64,000 nt of DNA, from positions 1 through 64,000 of the forward strand of contig JABEUN010000048.1 of the NCBI GenBank assembly GCA_013044385.1, given 5' to 3'. The notes beneath the pieces are model-generated. The model ran no database searches. It was given only the letters and a program-made list of their open reading frames with translations, and had not been told where the DNA came from. Positions 1,717 to 15,438 of this stretch are shown piece after piece. This stretch comes from Acidimicrobiaceae bacterium (GTDB lineage: Bacteria > Actinomycetota > Acidimicrobiia > Acidimicrobiales > Acidimicrobiaceae). The stretch's first letter is position 1. Every line of letters begins with the position of its first letter. The translations under genes were made by a program, and so were the position numbers.

Positions 1717-3045
1717 CTATTCAAGCCTAAGCAGGTCATCGAGCGACTCCCTCCTTACGACCACCCGGTGCTTCCCGTCCTTTACGAATACCACCGGCGG
1801 ACGCAGAACCTTGTTGTAGTTGGACGCCATCGAGTAGCCATATGCGCCAGTAACGGGAGTGCCGATCAACTCTCCAACCGCTAAGTCTGCAGGGAGAAGT
1901 GCTTCTCGCACGAGTATGTCGCCAGACTCGCAGTGCTTGCCAGAGATGCAGAAGATCTCAGTCGCGACATCCTCAGCCCTCTCGACCAGCAAAGTGTCAT
2001 ATCCGCTTCCATAGAGCACCGGACGGGGATTGTCACTCATACCGCCATCTACGGACACATAGGTCCTGATGCCTTCAAGTCTCTTGATCGTGCCGGCACG
2101 GTACACCGTTACCGCTGCCTGAGCGACAATTGATCTACCCGGCTCTATATGCAGCCTCACAGCGCCAGGGATACCCGCTTGCTCCGCATACCTCCCGAGC
2201 TCAGAGACCCATTCTTCCAAACTCGGAGCCTCCTCACCGCCGACGTATGGAACTCCCAAGCCACCACCAATATTCAACTCGGCCAGTTCATACCTACGCA
2301 CCAGTACTGCCATCACCTCTATTGCCGCTCGGTAGCTTTCGAGGCGCAGAATCTGGGAACCGATGTGACAGTGCAGTCCGACTAGTACGAGGTTCGAAGA
2401 GTCCAGCACCCGCTTTATAGCTCTCTCTGCTGCCCCAGAGTTAAATGAGAACCCGAACTTGGAATCCTCCTGACCAGTCATCACATACTCATGCGTATGA
2501 GCTTCAACACCTGGTGTAACTCTTATCCAGACACGAACGGGGCCAAAGGCGAGCGTATCAAGGCGATCGAGTTCATCGAAGGAGTCGACTACCACTCGCC
2601 CGACTCCGGCCTCAAGAGCGAACCTAAGCTCTTCACTCGACTTGTTGTTGCCGTGGAAGATCATGCGACTGGCTGGAAATCCCGCTGACAGCGCCACAAA
2701 GATCTCTCCCTGGGTGGCGACGTCCAAAAAGAGACCCTCTTCATCGACGATTCTCGCTAATTCGCGGCACAAAAAGGCTTTTGAGGCGTACGCAACTTCA
2801 CCGACGAAGCTGCGTTTCAACCTCCTCATGACAGACCTGATGTGCTCCTCGTCATAGACGAAAAAGGGAGTGCCGACTTCATGAGCGAGCCAGCCAAGGT
2901 CGACACCCCCGATTGAAACTCGTCCGTCGGAGATCTTCGAAGTCTTGGGGAGGAGTTCGATTGGGAAACTCCTTCGAGGGCCGGACGGTGCGACTCCAAA
3001 CTCACCGCCCTCGTTTGATCCAAATTTATCGACCATATCAGTCAT
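1717..3045 (-). CDS. lysA: diaminopimelate decarboxylase
   Basis: Last step of lysine synthesis: decarboxylates meso-diaminopimelate to L-lysine with PLP. The 442 residues form an alanine-racemase-like barrel with the PLP lysine in YASKAFLC (about residues 86-93), the phosphate-binding GGGLGVPY segment, HCHIGSQ, and the C-terminal CESGDIL motif that supplies the catalytic cysteine from the partner subunit. The start is ATG at 3045, only 7 nt after the argS stop, so the genes are cotranscribed. The argS-lysA-hom-thrC order is common in Actinobacteria. Because this enzyme uses meso-DAP, it also bears on the unusual substrate motif of MurE at 20568-22064. Confidence 0.97.
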   Translation of the reverse strand: MTDMVDKFGSNEGGEFGVAPSGPRRSFPIELLPKTSKISDGRVSIGGVDLGWLAHEVGTPFFVYDEEHIRSVMRRLKRSFVGEVAYASKAFLCRELARIVDEEGLFLDVATQGEIFVALSAGFPASRMIFHGNNKSSEELRFALEAGVGRVVVDSFDELDRLDTLAFGPVRVWIRVTPGVEAHTHEYVMTGQEDSKFGFSFNSGAAERAIKRVLDSSNLVLVGLHCHIGSQILRLESYRAAIEVMAVLVRRYELAELNIGGGLGVPYVGGEEAPSLEEWVSELGRYAEQAGIPGAVRLHIEPGRSIVAQAAVTVYRAGTIKRLEGIRTYVSVDGGMSDNPRPVLYGSGYDTLLVERAEDVATEIFCISGKHCESGDILVREALLPADLAVGELIGTPVTGAYGYSMASNYNKVLRPPVVFVKDGKHRVVVRRESLDDLLRLE

Positions 3046-3052
3046 CTGAATA

Positions 3053-4675
3053 TCACATCTGCTCCGGTGCCGCCACGCCTATCAGTCCCAGAGCCACCCG
3101 CACTCCAATTTGCGCACCACTGACCAGGAGGAGCCTGGCTTGAACGAGGTCCGGTGGCGTGGACTCCGCGAGAACCGGACAGTCGTGGTAGAAGCCATGG
3201 AAATCCGATGCGAACTCCCTGAGCCAGGTCACAACCTTCTGCGGCGCTCTCTCTTTGGCCGCAGCCTCGACAACCTCGGGAAGTCTGACAAGCGTCCGAA
3301 TCAGCTCGAGTTCTCTTGGATGTTGGAGCAGATCTACTGGTACCTGATCGACATCGACCAGAACAATCCCGCGCTCCTGACGAACCCTTTCAATCGAAGC
3401 GATGCGGGCGTGCGCATACTGGATGTAGTAGACCGGATTGTCCATCGACGTCTTCCGTGCCTCCTCGACGTCGATGGATGACGCTCTGTCGATGGATGAG
3501 GATAAGGACAGGAGCCTCACAACGGGGGCACCAACCTGGTCCACGAGCCAGTCCATCGCAACGACATCACCCGCACGCTTTGAGAACTTGACCTTCCGGT
3601 CACCCTCGACAAGTGAGACCATCTGCCCGAGCAGGATCTCCAAGCGATCAGGGTCGATCCCAAGAGCCGCCACCGCAGCCTTCAAGCTCGCCACCTGTCC
3701 GTGGTGATCCGCTCCGAAGATGTCAATAACCCTCTGGAATCCACGGACCAAAAACTTGTTCCGGTGGTAGGCAATATCACCCGCCAGATATGTGAAATCT
3801 CCGTTGGACTTCTTAAGCACACGGTCCCGGGTGTCGCCGAACCTGGTCGCGTCCAACCAGAGTGCGCCATCCTTCTCGTAAGTACTTCCTTGGCCCTCAA
3901 GAATCGCTATGGTCTCTGCCACAGCACCTGACTCCTCGATGGAGGCCTGCGAGTACCATTCGTCGAAGTGGATGTCTAGTTTCTCAAGGCTCTGCCGAAT
4001 GTTCTCCAAGTTCTCCTTGGCTGCGAACCGACCAGCGATGGTGATGTCCTCGGGCCCATCGTAGCGCTTTGCAAGTTCCACGACATACTCTCCCCGATAG
4101 CCACCTTCTGGGGGAGCATCCCCAGATCGACGGGCCAACAATGACTCCCCAAGAGTCCGGATCTGACCTCCAGTATCGTTCACGTAATATTCGGTGCTCA
4201 CGTCATATCCGCAACGCGAGAGCACTCGGCCCAAGGAGTCTCCGAACGACGCATACCAAGCATTGCCAACGTGGAGAGGTCCGGTCGGATTTGCTGAAAC
4301 AAACTCCAACTGAATCTTCTCGTCTGCCCCGAGAGTACTTCGGGCGAACTTATCCTCTCCATCCTCGATGACCTCGAGAAGCGCTTCGTGAAGGTAGCCA
4401 TTTTCGAGCCGAAAGTTGATGAATCCCGGACCAGCCAGTTCGACAGATGCAAGGTGGGGTATCTCACTGATTGCTGCCGTGGAGGCTATCTGACTCGCCA
4501 AGTCTCTGGGATTCCTGCCCACCCTCTTTGAGAGTCCAAGGGCAACTGAGGAGGCAAAGTCGCCATGTTCTGGACGGGCTGGTTTCTCAACTTTGATTAC
4601 GTCGTCAGAAAGCTCCAAGCCCAACTCCCTAAGAGCAGCGGCAATTGCCTCCGCGATCTGCCTCTCGCTCTTCAA
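3053..4675 (-). CDS. argS: arginyl-tRNA synthetase
   Basis: Charges tRNA-Arg; class I synthetase. The 540 residues begin with the Add-1 tRNA D-loop recognition domain, followed by the Rossmann catalytic domain with the HIGH-type motif written HVGN (in ANPTGPLHVGN) and a KMSKS-like segment KVKFSKRAGD. The C-terminal DALR anticodon domain ends in LGLIGVAAPEQM. The start is TTG at 4675, preceded by GGGAGG about 8 nt upstream. It is the first gene of the argS-lysA-hom-thrC operon and reads away from the tRNA-Arg gene at 4796, so a synthetase and its own substrate tRNA are neighbours. Confidence 0.97.
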   Translation of the reverse strand: MKSERQIAEAIAAALRELGLELSDDVIKVEKPARPEHGDFASSVALGLSKRVGRNPRDLASQIASTAAISEIPHLASVELAGPGFINFRLENGYLHEALLEVIEDGEDKFARSTLGADEKIQLEFVSANPTGPLHVGNAWYASFGDSLGRVLSRCGYDVSTEYYVNDTGGQIRTLGESLLARRSGDAPPEGGYRGEYVVELAKRYDGPEDITIAGRFAAKENLENIRQSLEKLDIHFDEWYSQASIEESGAVAETIAILEGQGSTYEKDGALWLDATRFGDTRDRVLKKSNGDFTYLAGDIAYHRNKFLVRGFQRVIDIFGADHHGQVASLKAAVAALGIDPDRLEILLGQMVSLVEGDRKVKFSKRAGDVVAMDWLVDQVGAPVVRLLSLSSSIDRASSIDVEEARKTSMDNPVYYIQYAHARIASIERVRQERGIVLVDVDQVPVDLLQHPRELELIRTLVRLPEVVEAAAKERAPQKVVTWLREFASDFHGFYHDCPVLAESTPPDLVQARLLLVSGAQIGVRVALGLIGVAAPEQM

Positions 4676-6432: not shown

Positions 6433-7449
6433 TCAGTCTTTCTCAATCGGTCCGCAGAACGGTGTAAACGTCACATAGGTCGTCTTTGTCTGTGTCCATC
6501 CAAGAAGCTTGCTCGTCGTAGTCGCGGGAAGCTGCTTGATCCGGTCCTTGACAGCCTTCAAGTCAATGCGCACTAATGGTCCGCCGGGTTGGTCCACATA
6601 GTCGCCATAGACCAAGAGCCACGACACAGTGTCCTTACGATGACCATTCTTATCGAACAGTGGGTGTTCAACATGGACTCCGACACGCTCATACGAGCGA
6701 GGTGACCGGGGAAGGTAGAACGCGTAGGACGATGAGTCACGTACTTCTGCTACCGAAAGGGTTCGTTCGTCCCCCCAGATATGACTCGCCTCCGGAATGG
6801 GTTCGCGGTCGGATCGGGCAATCTCGACACCTGTCGTGATAAGAATCGGCAGCGGGTCATGCTCGGAGATTCCACGAATACAAACCTCGTCATTGGTGAA
6901 AAGCATCGCTACCTCCGGCGCCATCAGTTGCTTTGCATGAGCGTCTGCAAAGACAACCCCGGATGGACGCGCCTTATCCATCAACCGTGCCGCCAAGTTG
7001 AGGCACCGCCCCGTGTAATCGAGAACACCGCCGTCGGAAATGAGTCGAGTTGCTGATCCGCGAGCGATGCCCACACCCAACTTCTTAGGTACCGGAAAGT
7101 TGATCATGTAATCGTCGGCAGTGATCTGACCAAACGCACCCACGAGCGTCACAGCACGAGCGAGGATTGAACTAACAATTCCCGGGACTGCCCCGGCGTT
7201 CGGCGGCAGCTCGTGGATCAGGAGAAGCCCGTCACCCGTTGGCTTGAAGAATGCGGTGTCGTCAAAGTGGGAACGCAGAATGGTGGTGAAGACAGATCGG
7301 AGATAATGAGCAGAATCGAACGATTCACCTTGTGCCGAGAAGGTTGAGAAGCCTCTGATATCAAGAAAGGTGGCGACGACTTGGCAGGACTCGGCTCGCG
7401 CTGACTTCAACAGTTCTCGAAGGCGCTCATGGAGTTGCTGCTCGATCAT
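6433..7449 (-). CDS. class III nucleotidyl cyclase coupled to the type I R-M operon
   Basis: Predicted to cyclise a nucleoside triphosphate into a 3',5'-cyclic nucleotide. In the 338 residues the cyclase homology domain covers about 22-175. Both metal-binding aspartates are present, D30 in FLDIRGFS and D73 in KPTGDG, 43 residues apart as in active enzymes. So are K69, D144 (LDYTG), N151 and R155 (NLAAR), which correspond to base- and transition-state-binding positions. The K69/D144 pair resembles adenylate cyclases, but base specificity cannot be settled by eye. Residues about 205-338 form a second domain I do not recognise. No membrane segment is seen. Its ATG overlaps the hsdR stop (ATGA, 7446-7449), so it is translated with the restriction genes. 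Pycsar defence cyclases are of this class, but no PycTM- or PycTIR-type effector is adjacent. The family is secure; the role is inference. Confidence 0.85.
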
Positions 7450-10400
7450 GACGCGACACCAGCGGCAAGAAGTTCAGCCTGCTGCATGACGAGTTGCACG
7501 GCCGCCTCTTGCTTGTCCGGAGGGTAGTGGTACTTCGCGAGGAGCCGTCGGATGTGCCGACGGAGCGACGCCCGCACCTGTTCCTTCTTGTCCCAATCCA
7601 CCGCTGCGTTGGCTCGCACAACATCGACGAGTTCTTGAGCGATGCGCTTGAGGACGTCGTCCCCAAGTTCCATGACGGCCGAGTCGTTCTGACACACTGC
7701 GTCATAGAAGGCGAGTTCGTCGTTGCGGAGCCCGAGCTTCGCACCTCGGTCGCTCTCGGTCTTCATCTCCTTCGCGAGTTCCACCAGCTCGGCGATGACC
7801 TCAGCAGCGGTGAGCGAACGGTTGTTGTACGAGCGCATCGCGCGTTCCAACATCTCTGAAAACTTGCGCTCGGCGACGACATTCCGCTTCGCCATCGACC
7901 GAACCTCGGAAGCGAGAAGTCGCCGCAGCACCTCGATCTGCACGTTTGGATGCGGGTTGGTCGTGAGCCGCTTCGCGAACTCGGCGTCGATGATGCTGAG
8001 ATCCGGTCTCCCGATCCCAGACGCCGCGTAGATGTCGATGACGCCGGATGCTGTCACTGCGTCCGACACGACCTGGCGAATGGCGGTTTCCAGTGCGACG
8101 TCATCGGTCGTACCTGGGCGATCCTCCGCCCTCGCCCTCCGCAGCTCCACGGCGACTGCCTGGAAGAATGCGAGATCATTTCGGTACTGCATCGCTTCGG
8201 GAGAGGAGACGACGAGCGCGAAGCTCTGCGATGCCACCCGAACGTGTTGGAGAAAGCGGTCCGGCAGCTCCATGTCCTCGCCGCCCAGCAGATGCTCCAG
8301 AGCGGCCATGATCGCCTCGATCCTGGCTCGGTCGCTGCCGGAGTCCAGTGCCTCTCTCCACGGACAGCCGTAGAGCAGCTCGCAGCAGACCTCGTGGTTC
8401 TCCTGGAGTAGGGCGAGCGCCTCATCGATAGGTGCGCCGACCTCTTGCCGGGCACGGTCGCGATCGGTGTAGTCGGCGAGTGCTGTCCGCAGGCTCTCGG
8501 CAATGCCGATGTAGTCAACGACGAGACCGCCGGGCTTGTCGAGAAAGGTTCGGTTCACGCGGGCGATGGCCTGCATCAGCCCAGCGCCGCGCATCGGCTT
8601 GTCCACGTACATCGTGTGGAGCGATGGCGAGTCGAAGCCCGTGAGCCACATGTCCCGCACGATGACGAGTTCCAGCGAATCGTCGGGGTCCTTGGCCCGC
8701 TCCTTGAGCGCTCGCTGTCGATCCTTGTTCCGGACGTGGCGGTTCATCTCCGGTCCGTCGGACGCGGATCCGGTGATGACGACCTTGATCTTGCCCCCAC
8801 CATCGTCGTCGGAATGCCACGCAGGGCGGAGCTTGGTGATCTCGTCGTAGAGGCTGACGCAGATTCGACGGCTCATGCAGACGATGAGGCCCTTGCCAAC
8901 CTCTGCGGATCGCCGCTTCTCCCAGTGATCCACGATGTCCTGGGCAACTTCGGCGATGCGCTTGTCAGCTCCGACGATCGCCTCGACCCGAGCCCATCGG
9001 GTCTTGAGTCGCTCTCGGGTGTCCGTTTCGGTCAGCTCCGTGACCTCATCGAACTCCTCGTCGATCGCGGACCGGGCTTCAGCAGGAAGCTCGACGCGGG
9101 CCAGGCGAGCCTCGTAGAACACCTTGACGGTTGCTTCGTCCTCGACAGCCTGGGTGAGATCGTAGACGTCCACATACTCACCGAAGATGGCTCGGGTGTC
9201 CTTGTCGGCGGTCTCGATCGGGGTACCCGTGAACCCCATGAAGGCGGCGTGAGGAAGGGCATCTCGGAGATTGCGAGCGAACCCGTCGATGAGGTCGTAC
9301 TGCGTACGGTGTGCCTCATCGGCCACGACGACGATGTTGCGCCGGTCGGACAGGATCGGGAAGGATCGGTTGGCGTCCTTGTCCTCTTTGGTGCGCCCGA
9401 ACTTCTGCATCGTCGAAAAGATGATGCCGCCCGATGCTTTCGATCGCAACAGCTCGCGCAGATGCTCGCGGGACTCAGCTTGCACGGGTGTTTCTGGGAG
9501 AGTTCGAGCAGGCGCGAAGACCTCGTCGAACAGTTGATCGTCGAGGTCGTTGCGGTCCGTCAGCATGACGACGGTCGGATTTGCCATCCCCGGATGGCGC
9601 ATGACCTTGCTGACGTAGAAGAGCATCTCCAAGCTCTTGCCGCTGCCTTGCGTGTGCCAGACGACGCCCGCCCGACCATCTCCTCGCTCCAACGCCGAGA
9701 GGGTCGTGTCAACGGCCTTATTGACTGCGTGGAACTGGTGATACTTGGCAAGCCGCTTGACGACGCCACTGCGTTCGTCCGAGAAGCTCACGAAGTTCCG
9801 AACGAGGTCCAGGAAGCGAAGCGGATCGAAGACACCGCGTACGAGCACTTCCATCTCGGGAGTGCCTGGCGCAGCGAGCCTCTTGCCCTCGATCGTCTTC
9901 CAGGGGGCGTAGTGCTCGAAGCGCCCCGCCAATGGCCCCATCCGAGCCTGCGTGCCGGTCGAGATGACGCATACCGCGTTGTAGGCAAGGAGCGCTGGAA
10001 TCTCAGCTGCGTACGTACGAAGCTGGTCGTAGGCACCCCTCAGCGTTGCCCGCTCCTCGCCGGGAACCTTCAGCTCAACAACGCCGAGGGGAAGTCCATT
10101 CACGAATAGCACGATGTCCGGACGTCGGGTACTCTGATCTCCCTCAACGGTGTACTGGTTGACGGCGAGAAACTCATTGCGGTCGGGGTGCTCGAAGTCC
10201 ACGAGCCACGCCACGTCGTGTCGGGATTCGCCATTGTCGGCCCGCCGTTCGATGGGCACCCCTGCCGCCAGGAGCTTGTAGATGCGCCAATTCTCGGCGA
10301 GTACATCCGCACTCTCGGGGCGGCGTACCGTAGCGACGACCTCATCGATGACGGATGCGGAGAGCAACGGGTTCAATCTGCCGATAGCAGTTCGGAGGCG

Positions 10401-10550
10401 ATCTTCCAGAAGGACATCCCGATAACTTCCACGCTCCGCACGGGGTTCGTCCGGGGCGAGGCCGGGTCCATACAGGACATCCCAGCCGAGGTCGGCGAAG
10501 TAGTCGAGGCATACCTCTTCGACGCCCGACTCTGCGATGAACGACCTCAC
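7446..10550 (-). CDS. hsdR: type I restriction enzyme, R subunit (HsdR)
   Basis: Motor and nuclease subunit of a type I restriction system: translocates DNA with ATP and cuts far from the recognition site. It has 1034 residues. The N-terminal PD-(D/E)xK nuclease has D145 (RPDIVLF) and E159/K161 (VELKV). The SF2 helicase has Walker A HTQGSGKS (about 299-306), the DEAH box in [13 protein letters not shown], and later motifs such as GFTGTPIE and [10 protein letters not shown] helical C-terminal domain that should bind HsdM follows. The start is GTG at 10550; the sequence then matches the family N-terminus ([15 protein letters not shown]). Every key motif is present, so the enzyme should be active. 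It follows a zinc-ribbon gene and overlaps the cyclase gene by 4 nt. Confidence 0.97.
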
Positions 10551-10565
10551 ATCAGTTCTCGCGAC

Positions 10566-10730
10566 CTACGTCCAGCCCCGGTGCCCACAGTTGTGACACC
10601 ATGGGAGCCAGGTCGTTCTCTTGTGACAGCTGGGACATTTCCGCACAGGTAGTACAGCGCTCATCAACGTCCCCCATGGGAACCATGAGAACCCCCCAGC
10701 ACCACCCTTGCCTCCGCTCCTTTTTGCCAT
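10566..10730 (-). CDS. 54-residue zinc-ribbon protein between hsdS and hsdR
   Basis: A short gene reads from ATG 10730 to TAG 10566-10568. The N-terminus is basic and Gly-rich (MAKRSGGKGGAGGFSW). Then comes a clear four-cysteine ribbon, CPSC (residues 32-35) and CHNC (45-48), followed by GHRGW, the spacing of rubredoxin-like zinc ribbons. GAGGAG lies about 8 nt before the ATG. It starts 18 nt after the hsdS stop and ends 15 nt before the hsdR start, on the same strand, so it belongs to the operon. An overlapping 66-codon frame (10552-10752) joined to hsdS by GTGA lacks this pattern and is judged a shadow. The function is unknown; binding DNA, HsdR or HsdS are possibilities. Confidence 0.72.
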   Translation of the reverse strand: MAKRSGGKGGAGGFSWFPWGTLMSAVLPVRKCPSCHKRTTWLPWCHNCGHRGWT

Positions 10731-10748
10731 AGCGATTTCTCCTCTTCG

Positions 10749-11960
10749 TCACCTTGTGTTGTCAACCAAGATTCGAGCATCGTTTTCTTCCACGAGGGAC
10801 TCGGCGTCACGAACGCGCAGCTCACCACTCAGGAGCTTCGGAAGCAGAGCGTCGCGGACGATTGTCAGTCCAACCGACTCCTTACGGAGGAGGCACGCCG
10901 ACTTCACCATTGCGTTGAGCGCCAAGCGGTGGACATCAGGAATTGAACTCGGATCACCAACCTCAATGGCAAGGACATCGGTTGCCTGAACTCGCTGGTG
11001 GCTGCCGGTCGTTCCGGTGACGCTCTCACCTAGCGAAGAGGTAAAGCTCGTACTGTTGCAGCACGCCCACAGTTCTTCTGCGGTCACAGCCCCCAGTGAG
11101 GTCATCACCACAAACTCTGTGGATGCAACGCCAAGCACACCGGGCTCCGGAACGGCGTACCACACGCGGGGAATGTGTGGATTGAGCCGTGAGACAAGAA
11201 CAGATACATCGTCTATTCGTTGTTTGCCGCTCTTGATCTCCGCTCCGGACTGACGAACAGGTAGGTGTCGCTCATCGAATGCTGGCAAGCTGAAATGATC
11301 GACCATCGTCGTCCCAGACGCAGCAGGATCGATGATGGTCCGCTGGACAGTCGCAACATCTCCAAGACGAATGCGGTTGGGCGCCTGCTCCAATAGCCGC
11401 GTTGCAAGTTCTTCCTCAAGCTGGACAGTTCGCTGGTTCGCTTCGATCTTGTCGTCCAGAGTACCGAGGACGTCGGCGATGGCGTCTTGAGTGCTTCGGT
11501 CTGGCAGCCGGATGGGCCACTCACCAAGTTCGTTCAGCGGGATTCGATCGACCGTGGCTCCACGTACCGCTCGTCGATCAATTTCCTGTTGAAACTCCGG
11601 ACCCAAGTATGCATAAAGCAGGAATCTCGGACTGACTTCAGCAGGTCGAGGGCGAAGTATCGCCATACGCCTTCCCAAGCAGGCGCTCACACCATCCGGC
11701 ATCAACGCCGCCTCACCGAGTCGGGTCTCATAGGAAAACAAGACATCATCAGGCTGCGGAGTTACTCGTCTTGTCCATTTTGCGAAGTCCTCTTCACTTA
11801 GATGTGCTGATTCCGACAGCACGAGACGGCCTTGCTGCAAGGAAGAGATGCTGAGAAACCATGGTCCCCGTTCGGTCTTATGCGGCGTTGCATGAGGCCC
11901 GTCGTAGATATCCGCTATATCTCGAACGGATCGCGTGTTCCAACTCGCGGCGTCAGTCAC
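10749..11960 (-). CDS. hsdS: type I restriction enzyme, specificity subunit (HsdS)
   Basis: Recognises the bipartite DNA target for both methylation and restriction. From GTG at 11960 the product is 403 residues. It shows two target-recognition domains, each followed by a helical spacer: the first ends in the conserved segment [27 protein letters not shown], and the second ends near [15 protein letters not shown]. The GTG overlaps the last codons of hsdM (stop 11953-11955), giving translational coupling; an ATG frame opening at 12032 would overlap hsdM by 80 nt and is less likely. One counted line is about 50% G+C, well below hsdM and hsdR, which fits exchange of recognition domains. The target sequence cannot be read from this. 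Confidence 0.93.
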
Positions 11961-13527
11961 CGAGTGTCTCCAGAGCGGAGCGCACTCGGGTCTGGAGTCG
12001 GTCGCTCTCCTCCAATGCTGCGAACAGCTCATCCTTCAGTCGCTGAATCTTCTCCTGGATCGGCTCGCCGTCGTCCTCGGCGTCTTCGGTGCCGACGTAG
12101 CGGCCCGGCGTGAGCACGCAGCGGCGTTCAGCAATCTGCTCAAGCGTGGCGGATGCGCAGAAGCCGGGGATGTCTTCGTGCGCACCAGCATCTGGCTCTC
12201 CTCGCCATGCGTGATAGGCACCGGCGATCTTCGCCGTGTCTTCATCGAACAGTTCTCGATGCGTACGGTCCACCATGGTGCCGAGCTTGCGGGCGTCGAT
12301 AAAGAGAACCTCACCCTTCCGGTCTCGCCACCCGCGCGATCCGCCAGATGTCTTGTCCCGGTTGAGGAACCAGAGAGACACCGGAATCGGCGTCGTGTAG
12401 AAGAGCTGGCCCGGTAGAGCAACAATGCATTCGACGAGATCAGCTTCGATCATCTTGCGGCGGATGTCACCTTCGCCGGACTGCTGGGAGGACAAGGAGC
12501 CGTTGGCGAGAACGACGCCAGCCACGCCTTGCGGCGCGAGCTTCGAGGCCATGTGCTGGAGCCAGCCAAAGTTGGCGTTCCCTACCGGCGGCGCTCCGAA
12601 GCGCCAGCGAGGATCATCCCTCAGCTGATCGCCACCCCAGTCCGAGATGTTGAACGGGGGATTCGCGAGGATGAAGTCGGCCTTGAGGTCGGGGTGGAGG
12701 TCCTCGTGGAACGTGTCGCCCCATCTCGGGCCGAGGTCAGCTTCGATCCCGCGGATCGCGAGGTTCATCTTCGCCAGTCGCCAGGTTGTGTCGTTCAGCT
12801 CTTCGCCGTAGACAGCGATGTCGTTGCGCCCGCCGCCGTGGGACTCGACGAAGTTCTCCGACTGGACGAACATGCCGCCTGAACCACAGCACGGGTCGTA
12901 GACCCTACCCTTGTGCGGCTCGATCATCTCGACGAGGAGCTTGACGACGCTTCGCGGCGTGTAGAACTCGCCGCCGCCCTTCCCCTCCTGGGAGGCGAAG
13001 CGTCCGAGGAAGTACTCGTACACCCGACCGAGGATGTCCTTCTCCCGGTGCTCGGCGCCACCCAGCCTGAGCCCGGCGATCAGGTCGACCAGTTCGCCAA
13101 GGCGACGGACATCGAGACTCGGCCGCGCGAAGTTCTTGGGGAGCACCCCTCGCAGGCTCGGATTCTCGACCTCGACCGCGTCCATGGCGGTATCGATGAG
13201 CTTCCCGATCTCGGGCTGCTTGGCACTGGCCTGGAGATACTCCCAGCGAGCCTCGGGCGGCACCCAGAAGACCCCTTCCGCGGTGTACTCGTCACGGGAC
13301 TCCAGCAGCTCCTCAGCCTGCTCGCCGGTGATGCCGTCGGCAGCCAGATCGGCGGCAAGCTGCGCTCGGCGCTCGCCGAAGGCGTCATCGACGTACTTGA
13401 GGAAGACGAGTCCCAAGACGACGTGCTTGTACGCGCTGGCGTCCATCGAGCCCCGGAGCTTGTCCGCGGCCTTCCAGAGGGTGTCCTCGAAGCCAAGTGG
13501 CTCGCCGTTCCGAGCCGGACGTGCCAT
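11953..13527 (-). CDS. hsdM: type I restriction enzyme, DNA methyltransferase subunit (HsdM)
   Basis: N6-adenine methyltransferase that with HsdS protects host DNA and with HsdR forms the restriction complex. It has 524 residues: a helical N-terminal HsdM domain (about 10-145), then the SAM-binding motif [15 protein letters not shown] and the catalytic motif NPPFN (in [12 protein letters not shown]). The C-terminal helical region ends [17 protein letters not shown] at 13527 is the start. It is first in the order hsdM-hsdS-zinc ribbon-hsdR-cyclase and lies 111 nt after the DGQHR gene on the same strand. All catalytic motifs are intact. Confidence 0.97.
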
Positions 13528-13638
13528 CAGGCAACCGTCCCGGTTTCGCGTGGACGAGAGTGAGCGTGTCGGACCATCAAGAGATCGTACGACAGGGGGG
13601 TGACAGCCATGAGGGGTCGTCGCTGATCAGGAGCATCA

Positions 13639-14892
13639 TCACGCCGCGTGGACAGGCTGGTCGAGCCACTCGGGCACCGGCTCGGCGATAGCCCATTCGA
13701 CCATTGCATCCCGAAGCGTCTTGAGGTCCTGACGGCGGCTACGAGGGGCGAACGCTCCGGGCGAGTAGACGTCGTCGCCGACCTTGGAGACCCAAATGCT
13801 GCCAGCGGTCGCCGGTCCGGCCATATGCGGCGCCAGCTTCCTGAAGAAGTCCGTCACGTCCTCGTCGTCGAACGCCTGCTTGTCGGCCAGCTCAGCGTAC
13901 GCACCGGCCAACACTCGCAACATGACCGTCGACCCAAGCAGGCTCGACTTCCGGAGTTCCTCGGTCGTAAGTTCGTCGTCCGCAACCGCTGCCAGAGGCG
14001 GAAAGGCCGTTAGCAACACGTCGAAGAAATTGTTCGCCTTCTCGACAAGCGCATCCTCCCGAAGCTCATCTTCCAGGCGGCGTCCGATCCTTCCGTCAAT
14101 CCCGACAGCGAGGGTGCGCACGATCTCTGCAACATGCTTCGCGCCCAGGAGGTTCGGGTTGTTTCGACCCATGCGATCTTGTTCGGGGTCGACCCGTCCC
14201 TTGAGGAGGGCATGCTTCATGACATCCTCAAGGCTCCGATTGACGACCTTGCGGCTGTCGAACCGAGCACGCACTGACGACGTGATCCCCAGGGCGTTGT
14301 CGGCGATGTCGAAGAACATTTGCTTGTAGGCGATCTGGTCGTCCTCGATAAAAATCTGAAGCGTCGTTCGCTCCCGGTCGAAGCGCTCCCGCTGCTCGTT
14401 CAACTCGGCGATCTGCTTCTCGAACATCTGGATCACAGCCGCCTCTTCCCCGTTCCGCTTTGCTGCGGCCAGCTGGCTCCGCTTCTTCTCAAGCTCTTCC
14501 GCGATGGCCCGGATGGCCAAGTGGATGCCAAGGATGCGGTGCTGCCCGTCGAGGATGCGGAGATCGGTGCTGGCAAGGCGCGGGAAAGAGATCACCCCGA
14601 ACTCCGTCCCTCCGATCTTCTCCCGGCTCTCGAACTCGAAGATGTCCGGCCCACGGAGCACCAACGCGGGTGCTACCCAATTGCGCTCGATCCTGACGTA
14701 GTCGCCGAAGGCCCGAGCGTGGGCTTCCTTGATCCGGCGGTTTCCTTCGGTGGGGTGCAACGGGTCTGGCGCCGGGAGCAGCCCGGCGATCTGCGTAAGG
14801 GCCAGGTCCAGCGAGAAGACCGTCCTTCCTCCCTGCTTGTACCGGGTTGCGTAGAACCGGATGGACGGGTCGTACCCCGTGACCTCTGACAT
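13639..14892 (-). CDS. DGQHR-domain protein (DndB-like)
   Basis: The 417 residues carry the signature DGQHR at 115-119 (RILDGQHRI), inside a ParB/sulfiredoxin-like fold that defines DndB-type proteins. DndB is known as a regulator of phosphorothioate DNA modification, but no dndA/C/D/E genes are present here. A charged helical stretch follows (about 130-170, EELEKKRSQLAAAKRNGEEAAV...), probably a coiled coil, then an all-helical C-terminal region. The start is ATG at 14892 with GGAGG about 7 nt before it. It has its own promoter and palindromic operator (14929-14964) and lies 111 nt upstream of hsdM, so it could be cotranscribed with the R-M genes. The exact role, whether regulator or accessory defence protein, is unknown. 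Confidence 0.85.
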   Translation of the reverse strand: MSEVTGYDPSIRFYATRYKQGGRTVFSLDLALTQIAGLLPAPDPLHPTEGNRRIKEAHARAFGDYVRIERNWVAPALVLRGPDIFEFESREKIGGTEFGVISFPRLASTDLRILDGQHRILGIHLAIRAIAEELEKKRSQLAAAKRNGEEAAVIQMFEKQIAELNEQRERFDRERTTLQIFIEDDQIAYKQMFFDIADNALGITSSVRARFDSRKVVNRSLEDVMKHALLKGRVDPEQDRMGRNNPNLLGAKHVAEIVRTLAVGIDGRIGRRLEDELREDALVEKANNFFDVLLTAFPPLAAVADDELTTEELRKSSLLGSTVMLRVLAGAYAELADKQAFDDEDVTDFFRKLAPHMAGPATAGSIWVSKVGDDVYSPGAFAPRSRRQDLKTLRDAMVEWAIAEPVPEWLDQPVHAA

Positions 14893-14928
14893 CGTGAACC
14901 TCCGTTTGCTCGTAAACCTCGATAACGA

Positions 14929-14964
14929 GATCTTATCGTAGCTACTACGATCTTATTTGTCAAA
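14929..14964 (-). promoter_or_regulatory. promoter and overlapping operator of the DGQHR/R-M genes
   Basis: On the minus strand a consensus -35 TTGACA (14964-14959) is followed after 18 nt by a -10-like TACGAT (14940-14935). Overlapping the -10 is a perfect inverted repeat ATCGTAG-N3-CTACGAT (14935-14941 and 14945-14951). GATCTTAT also occurs twice in direct orientation (14929-14936 and 14949-14956), 20 nt or about two helical turns apart. A repressor bound here would block RNA polymerase. The regulator is not identified; DndB-like autoregulation is one possibility. Confidence 0.65.
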
Positions 14965-15000
14965 TCTAGATGTTATCTGACTGGGAGGTCACCCGGCTAC

Positions 15001-15438
15001 TCAACAGCACCTCGCCGAGGCGAAGCCGCCCTCGGTCACGATGACGTGATCGAGGACGGGGAGCCCGTGCCGGGCGCACTCAACCGCCAGCGCAGCGAAG
15101 AACCGCTCCTCGACTTCCGTGGCGCTCAGGATGCGCCAGCGGCCAAAGCGGATGACCACGGCCGTTTCGGCCCGGCACGCCTGGGATCCTTGAAGGATCG
15201 GTCGTGCCGAGAGGCGGTCGGCCTGCGCCCAGCCCACGGCAAGGATCGCTGTGCCGACGAGGCGATGACGCCCGTCGAGGTATAGGGCGAGCGGGATGTC
15301 CCCCCGGCGATGCCGGAGCAGATCGGCGGCGAGCTGCGCCGCCGACGCCGGACCGTCGGACCCTCGACCCGTCGAGGAAGGTTGAGCGGAGCGTCGCCCA
15401 CGGCGTCCGGAGGATGCGGAGCGTCGAAGTTGGGACAT
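15001..15438 (-). CDS. RadC-like protein without the JAMM metal motif
   Basis: From ATG 15438 (GGAGGG about 7 nt upstream) the product is 145 residues. After a basic, disordered N-terminus (about 1-45) comes a RadC/MPN-like fold with LYLDGRHRLVGTAILAVG, an internal R-P-I segment, and the C-terminal GLPVLDHVIVTEGGFASA that matches the conserved end of RadC (LDHxIxG...YxS). The metal-binding HxHPSG...D motif expected in the middle is replaced by VVIRFGRWRI, so metalloprotease-type catalysis is unlikely. RadC-like proteins are frequent on mobile elements and their function is unsettled. It stands alone at the right end of the island, reading towards the DGQHR gene. Confidence 0.7.
   Translation of the reverse strand: MSQLRRSASSGRRGRRSAQPSSTGRGSDGPASAAQLAADLLRHRRGDIPLALYLDGRHRLVGTAILAVGWAQADRLSARPILQGSQACRAETAVVIRFGRWRILSATEVEERFFAALAVECARHGLPVLDHVIVTEGGFASARCC

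Follow-up and report, generated by a model that had tools for sequence, protein, structure and literature searches.

A predicted zinc-ribbon microprotein gene between hsdS and hsdR in related type I restriction-modification operons

Type I restriction enzymes are regarded as three-subunit machines, and a conserved microprotein co-translated with these subunits in one subgroup would, if true, be a host-encoded small modulator. A very short open frame lying between hsdS and hsdR raises the question of whether such a gene exists, which restriction systems carry it and what its product may do. Here, we address this question in a window of 64,000 nucleotides, meaning the whole stretch of DNA that was analysed, and in the closest relatives of its restriction operon.

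The microgene and its product

The hsdM, hsdS and hsdR genes lie together on one strand of the window and form an ordinary type I restriction-modification operon according to Pfam, NCBIfam and PADLOC. A 54-codon open frame, hereafter the microgene, lies between hsdS and hsdR. In minus-strand order the features are:

13527 to 11953, minus strand: hsdM (N6_Mtase)
12032 to 10749, minus strand: hsdS (Methylase_S); the open frame is listed from its first ATG, and the true start is probably nearer the hsdM stop, about 11956
10752 to 10552, minus strand: longer overlapping frame of 66 aa with a GTG start, from the open-frame listing of the window
10745 to 10739, minus strand: ribosome-binding site AGAGGAG, within the hsdS-microgene spacer
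10730 to 10566, minus strand: microgene, ATG at 10730, TAG at 10568-10566, 54 codons
10694 to 10644, minus strand: hydrophobic stretch with Trp and Pro, codons 13-29, GFSWFPWGTLMSAVLPV, mean Kyte-Doolittle value 1.0
10637 to 10587, minus strand: predicted zinc ribbon, codons 32-48, C32-P-S-C35-x9-C45-H-N-C48, placed by the cysteine alignment of five homologues
10550 to 7446, minus strand: hsdR (HSDR_N, SWI2_SNF2, T1RH-like_C), GTG start at 10550, in the reading frame of the microgene

The microgene is translated as MAKRSGGKGGAGGFSWFPWGTLMSAVLPVRKCPSCHKRTTWLPWCHNCGHRGWT. Its ATG follows the hsdS stop after 18 nt, CGAAGAGGAGAAATCGCT, and 15 nt separate its stop from the GTG of hsdR. A sequence-only reading of this DNA had described a 54-codon gene at 10566-10730, fitted between hsdS and hsdR, preceded by a strong ribosome-binding site, encoding a CPSC...CHNC protein and masked by a longer frame; each of these elements is present in the window, and the strand, which that reading left unstated, is the minus strand. 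The plus strand at 10566-10730 is interrupted by stops and is not open. The same reading placed the gene below usual gene-calling limits; the usual limit of modern gene callers is 90 nt, and 54 codons exceed it.

The predicted protein consists of a flexible Gly/Lys-rich N terminus, a short hydrophobic stretch and a single four-cysteine zinc ribbon. Its charge is +8 (+7 to +10 across the four hsd loci described below) and it contains five tryptophans (four to five among the hsd-locus members). The AlphaFold model has a mean pLDDT of 63; its N terminus is disordered, its ribbon region is moderately confident with about 78 for residues 31-50, and the best Foldseek match has an E value of 1.2. No family in Pfam, NCBIfam or PADLOC claims the microprotein, and every match to a curated zinc-ribbon model lies below the Pfam gathering score; we infer that the ribbon binds zinc. 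Nucleic acid or another protein is a common binding partner for single zinc ribbons of comparable size. We found no report of such a gene in the open-access literature.

Conservation and patchy presence in related hsd operons

HsdR was used as an anchor across genome samples of the phylum and of the order, and the hsdS-hsdR gap of each of the closest systems was read. HsdR identity to the window protein was 87% in genome G043, 86% in G824, 84% in G115, 74% in G802, 72% in G327 (whose system lacks its 5' end) and 71% in G432. The same gap contains an orthologue of the microgene in G043, G802 and G115, which belong to three other families of the same order, with 69%, 54% and 45% identity, respectively (the G043 match stood at 75% in the first search and is 69% over the full-length alignment). 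A scan of a public genome collection returned a sole match, JAJZBS010000064.1, which is the 16,210-base contig G043:C99 of an actinomycete metagenome-assembled genome. Place and strand of the microgene are identical in the four loci, a GGAG-type ribosome-binding site is found at the same place in each, and the spacers measure 18, 21, 18 and 18 nt on the hsdS side and 15, 15, 15 and 21 nt on the hsdR side (window, L043, L045 and L014). The four cysteines are invariant together with W16, W19, P28 and R30 (window numbering), hence the zinc-ribbon pattern first read in the window is kept between hsdS and hsdR in all three relatives. The sequence-only reading had named the loss of this pattern in relatives as its refutation, and the microgene withstands that check. 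By these alignments the carriers of the microgene are close relatives among type I systems, with HsdR identities of 73-87%, and come from four families.

A frame this short could be open by accident in a high-G+C spacer, and a longer frame does overlap it in the window. We therefore consider how the two frames vary. Between the window and G043, nucleotide differences over the 54 codons number 12, 9 and 31 at codon positions 1, 2 and 3, and NG86 estimates give a dN of 0.22 with a saturated dS; for the remaining microgene pairs dN is 0.26-0.60 while dS is 1.7-2.8 or saturated. The third-position excess, together with dN far below dS, argues that the microgene is protein-coding and under purifying selection, and it is the synonymous bias that the sequence-only reading had proposed to look for. 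In the register of the longer frame, G043 has nothing open for 45 codons or more at this spot, and the longer frame is not kept open. Besides, the 64-kb window has 542 stop-to-stop frames with a length of 50-110 codons, and the microgene is the only one among them with the pattern CxxC-x6-14-CxxC. Since amino acids, cysteines, start, stop and position are conserved in four loci with a strong third-position bias, the reading as a spurious frame is refuted unless all the alignments are artefacts, and we give it almost no credence. We take the microgene to be a real, previously unannotated protein gene of the hsd operon.

In all four loci hsdS, the microgene and hsdR share one reading frame, both spacers being multiples of three although they differ in length by 3 and 6 nt between loci. 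Such phasing would suit a module in which stop-codon readthrough yields HsdS-ribbon or ribbon-HsdR fusions. However, the in-frame pattern would arise by chance about 1 time in 81 with events counted generously, the stop codons vary (TGA, TAG) with no conserved stop context, and each gene has its own start, the microgene also having its own ribosome-binding site; readthrough is highly improbable.

G824 has no microgene, and its hsdS and hsdR genes overlap by 4 nt, although HsdM and HsdR of this genome are 92% identical to those of the carrier G043. The hsdS-hsdR gap of G432 holds a different gene. Among loci with HsdR below 57% identity, some of which end before the gap, no readable hsdS-hsdR gap contains the microgene, and neither do the annotated plasmid hsd systems of Citricoccus, Rhodococcus and Dietzia, in which hsdS and hsdR overlap. 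No free-standing close copy was found in viral contigs or in phage and plasmid records. Full-length matches in the order sample number only five, of which four lie in hsd operons; the weak genome matches (E 1e-4 to 1e-2) that were read proved to be bL32 genes (L095, L098, L099), another zinc-ribbon protein (L106), and stop-interrupted frames or partial matches inside unrelated genes. Presence and absence among near-identical HsdM/HsdR pairs show that the microgene is optional, and a core type I subunit was rejected on account of G824 and of the more distant readable hsd loci, which have none. The suggestion of a new subunit made in the sequence-only reading thus holds in so far as a real, conserved microprotein gene lies in the operon; it fails as a general type I subunit, given the absence from G824, from the readable gaps of distant loci and from the annotated plasmid systems, and a homologue in another setting (G827, see below). 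Judged by gene content, the microgene is a clade-restricted optional add-on, and the core enzyme would work without it.

These arrangements bear on a possible regulatory function, in which the ribbon would bind nucleic acid and control hsdR or the operon, for instance by postponing HsdR until after methylation; mere translational coupling across the short spacer may account for part of the effect. The position between S and R and the highly basic nature of the protein (+7 to +10) are consistent with this, as is the difference between the short hsdS-hsdR overlap without the microgene (G824; Dietzia and Citricoccus plasmids) and an hsdR start 15-21 nt after it. Against it, closely related operons are arranged without the microgene, and the protein belongs to no helix-turn-helix or known DNA-binding regulator family: no helix-turn-helix family matches at E <= 1 in Pfam, which speaks against a controller (C) protein. 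We consider a regulator unlikely.

DNA identity between the window and G115 is 91% over the hsdS tail and ribosome-binding site, 78% at the 5' end of hsdR and 48% in the ribbon-coding part, while for the window and G043 the ribbon-coding part is the more similar (72%, against 58% in the tail). The second recognition domain of HsdS is of one type in the window, G043 and G802 (47-53% identity) and of another in G115 (19-22%; 19% against the window), so that it tracks the ribbon type across the four loci. This raises, only as a suggestion, the possibility that microgene and recognition domain were exchanged together. A requirement of the microprotein for one type of recognition domain was rejected, as both types occur elsewhere without the microgene, the window/G043/G802 types in L048, L050, L051, L068, L040 and L116 and the G115 type in L115, L017 and L025. 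A given target specificity thus does not depend on the microgene.

A homologue outside restriction and comparison with known systems

A profile of the four microproteins retrieved a fifth full-length match, in G827 (E 1.9e-7): MASKSSSKGPGGIPWAVVVPVVHAVVDLATHASCPACGNQVVLYVCVNCKKPVW. This match scores 34.4 bits, while 500 trials with a shuffled N terminus gave a mean of 11.0 and a maximum of 20.0; the collapse of the score indicates that the match exceeds the ribbon alone. The microgene homologues known from the genome samples are these five sequences, and all four cysteines, in two CxxC knuckles, are invariant in them. The mean hydrophobicity of the central stretch is 0.7-1.4 in the restriction-linked members, which have Pro, Trp or Arg inside it, and reaches 1.9 in G827 only; a clear membrane anchor was rejected because the stretch is too weakly hydrophobic in the restriction-linked members and is broken by these residues.

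The G827 homologue lies a short way upstream of genes for multiubiquitin and an E1-like ThiF/DUF6791 protein, on a 4.8-kb contig with no restriction genes. The other strand carries a helix-turn-helix gene and a second frame that appears ImmA/IrrE-like when read by eye. At 2726-3399 of this locus (L094) two further small unannotated frames, of 93 and 55 codons, flank the homologue ahead of multiubiquitin, and neither has a family match above cut-off. Given the G827 context, restriction is not an obligatory setting for the microprotein family, even though it is the setting of the other four known members. The locus resembles the multiubiquitin-ThiF-DUF6527 operons in its neighbours, but the five annotated plasmid examples of these operons contain no such zinc-ribbon gene. 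With a homologue in one of the six multiubiquitin operons examined, the microgene is neither a standard part nor a recurrent component of them. The homologue hints that such microproteins may be common to different defence systems and missed by annotation. A broader proposal, that Lys/Gly-rich, W-P-W zinc-ribbon microproteins form a new defence-operon family of exchangeable adaptors or sensors plugging into the effector complexes of unrelated systems (type I restriction, multiubiquitin-ThiF), strikes us as improbable.

Several known proteins share single features with the microprotein. Lambda Ral and Rac Lar (PF14354) are likewise small, and type I methyltransferases are their target; Ral makes M.EcoKI a de novo methyltransferase (PMC3874165). 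Ral is phage-borne, whereas the microgene lies inside the hsd operon. Membership in Ral/Lar was rejected, with no PF14354 match at E <= 1 and no detectable similarity to Ral, whose score with the microprotein model is -1.2 bits and whose cysteines are spaced differently (11, 17, 20, 26). The CxxC-x9/10-CxxC ribbon is found in DZR (PF12773), DZR_2 (PF18912) and small zinc proteins of the HVO_2753 type, but the double-zinc-ribbon models have neither the Lys/Gly-rich N terminus nor the W-P-W stretch, and the weak single-member matches (DZR 6e-4 with G827, DZR_2 1e-3 with G802) fall below curated cut-offs and cover the ribbon only. Ribosomal protein bL32 is also small and basic, with a zinc ribbon at the C terminus behind an N-terminal tail, and is the best weak PDB sequence match (E 0.004); the match covers 21 ribbon residues only, the tail is unmatched and the genomic context is unrelated. 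A weak match to Nop10 is likewise confined to the ribbon.

Possible roles at the hsdS-hsdR junction

Placement between S and R, co-translation and protein-level selection argue for an accessory role in the operon, while a core role is hard to reconcile with the patchy distribution. We tentatively favour, at somewhat less than an even chance, an accessory that docks on HsdS/HsdM or on the DNA side and tunes the restriction complex. The microgene would have been added at the hsdS-hsdR junction, a known collecting site for defence genes. Its product would be made together with HsdS and HsdR, the zinc ribbon would dock on assembled HsdS/HsdM or on the DNA to which this is bound, and the docked microprotein could tune the restriction-modification complex, e.g. 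the balance of modification and cleavage or the recruitment of HsdR. This is consistent with the same place, strand and spacing in four loci, the invariant cysteines and purifying selection, the lack of free-standing close copies in viral, phage and plasmid records with four of five matches in hsd operons, and the precedents of the junction hotspot (PMC12255303) and of small proteins acting on type I methyltransferases, such as lambda Ral (PMC3874165). On the other side, the same HsdS recognition-domain types work without the microgene in other operons, the G827 homologue in a ubiquitin-like operon points to a function that is wider than restriction, confidence in the predicted structure is low (mean pLDDT 63) with no significant structural match, and the restriction loci number four only.

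The hotspot also allows for an independent passenger, that is a small defence or stress gene lodged at the junction with a target of its own, for which the operon only supplies expression. Genes inserted at the hsdS-hsdR junction include darTG2 and an RNA-binding protein/AAA ATPase pair (PMC12255303), and the EcoprrI operon harbours prrC (PMC3874165). The microgene resembles such cargo as an accessory gene embedded in an hsd operon; PrrC and darTG2-type cargo are large effectors or toxin-antitoxin pairs, whereas the microprotein has 50-56 aa and no catalytic domain. Its patchy presence, the occupation of the same gap by other genes in G432, and the G827 homologue next to the multiubiquitin and ThiF/DUF6791 genes (34.4 bits, with shuffles reaching no more than 20.0) all point towards cargo. 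However, four of the five homologues occupy an identical position within a single type I subgroup, the microgene is translationally packed between S and R with no other partner, and it has no recognisable effector domain; cargo is possible but rather unlikely. If it were passive cargo, the microgene would be one more small passenger at a known hotspot.

Some further observations concern the operon that hosts the putative docking accessory. A DGQHR/DndB-like gene lies at 13639-14892 (minus strand), 111 nt upstream of hsdM and on the same strand, with matches to the DndB Pfam model (1.9e-29) and TIGR03187 (4e-16); its product has no match in the stretches examined around hsdM of G043, G802, G115 and G824. 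Within 7446-14892, G+C content is 0.62-0.64 in hsdR, hsdM and the DndB-like gene, against 0.56 in the whole window, which is compatible with horizontal acquisition. An Rfam search of 10000-15200 gave no match. The hsdS gene is seemingly split by a frameshift in L071 (G824), where six consecutive C lie close to the break, and in L070 (G115), which could reflect phase variation or assembly error. Finally, the single-contig genome G010 (L066 / L075), from the same family as the window, contains a truncated hsdR fragment (82% identical, residues 554-848), likely a remnant of the same system.
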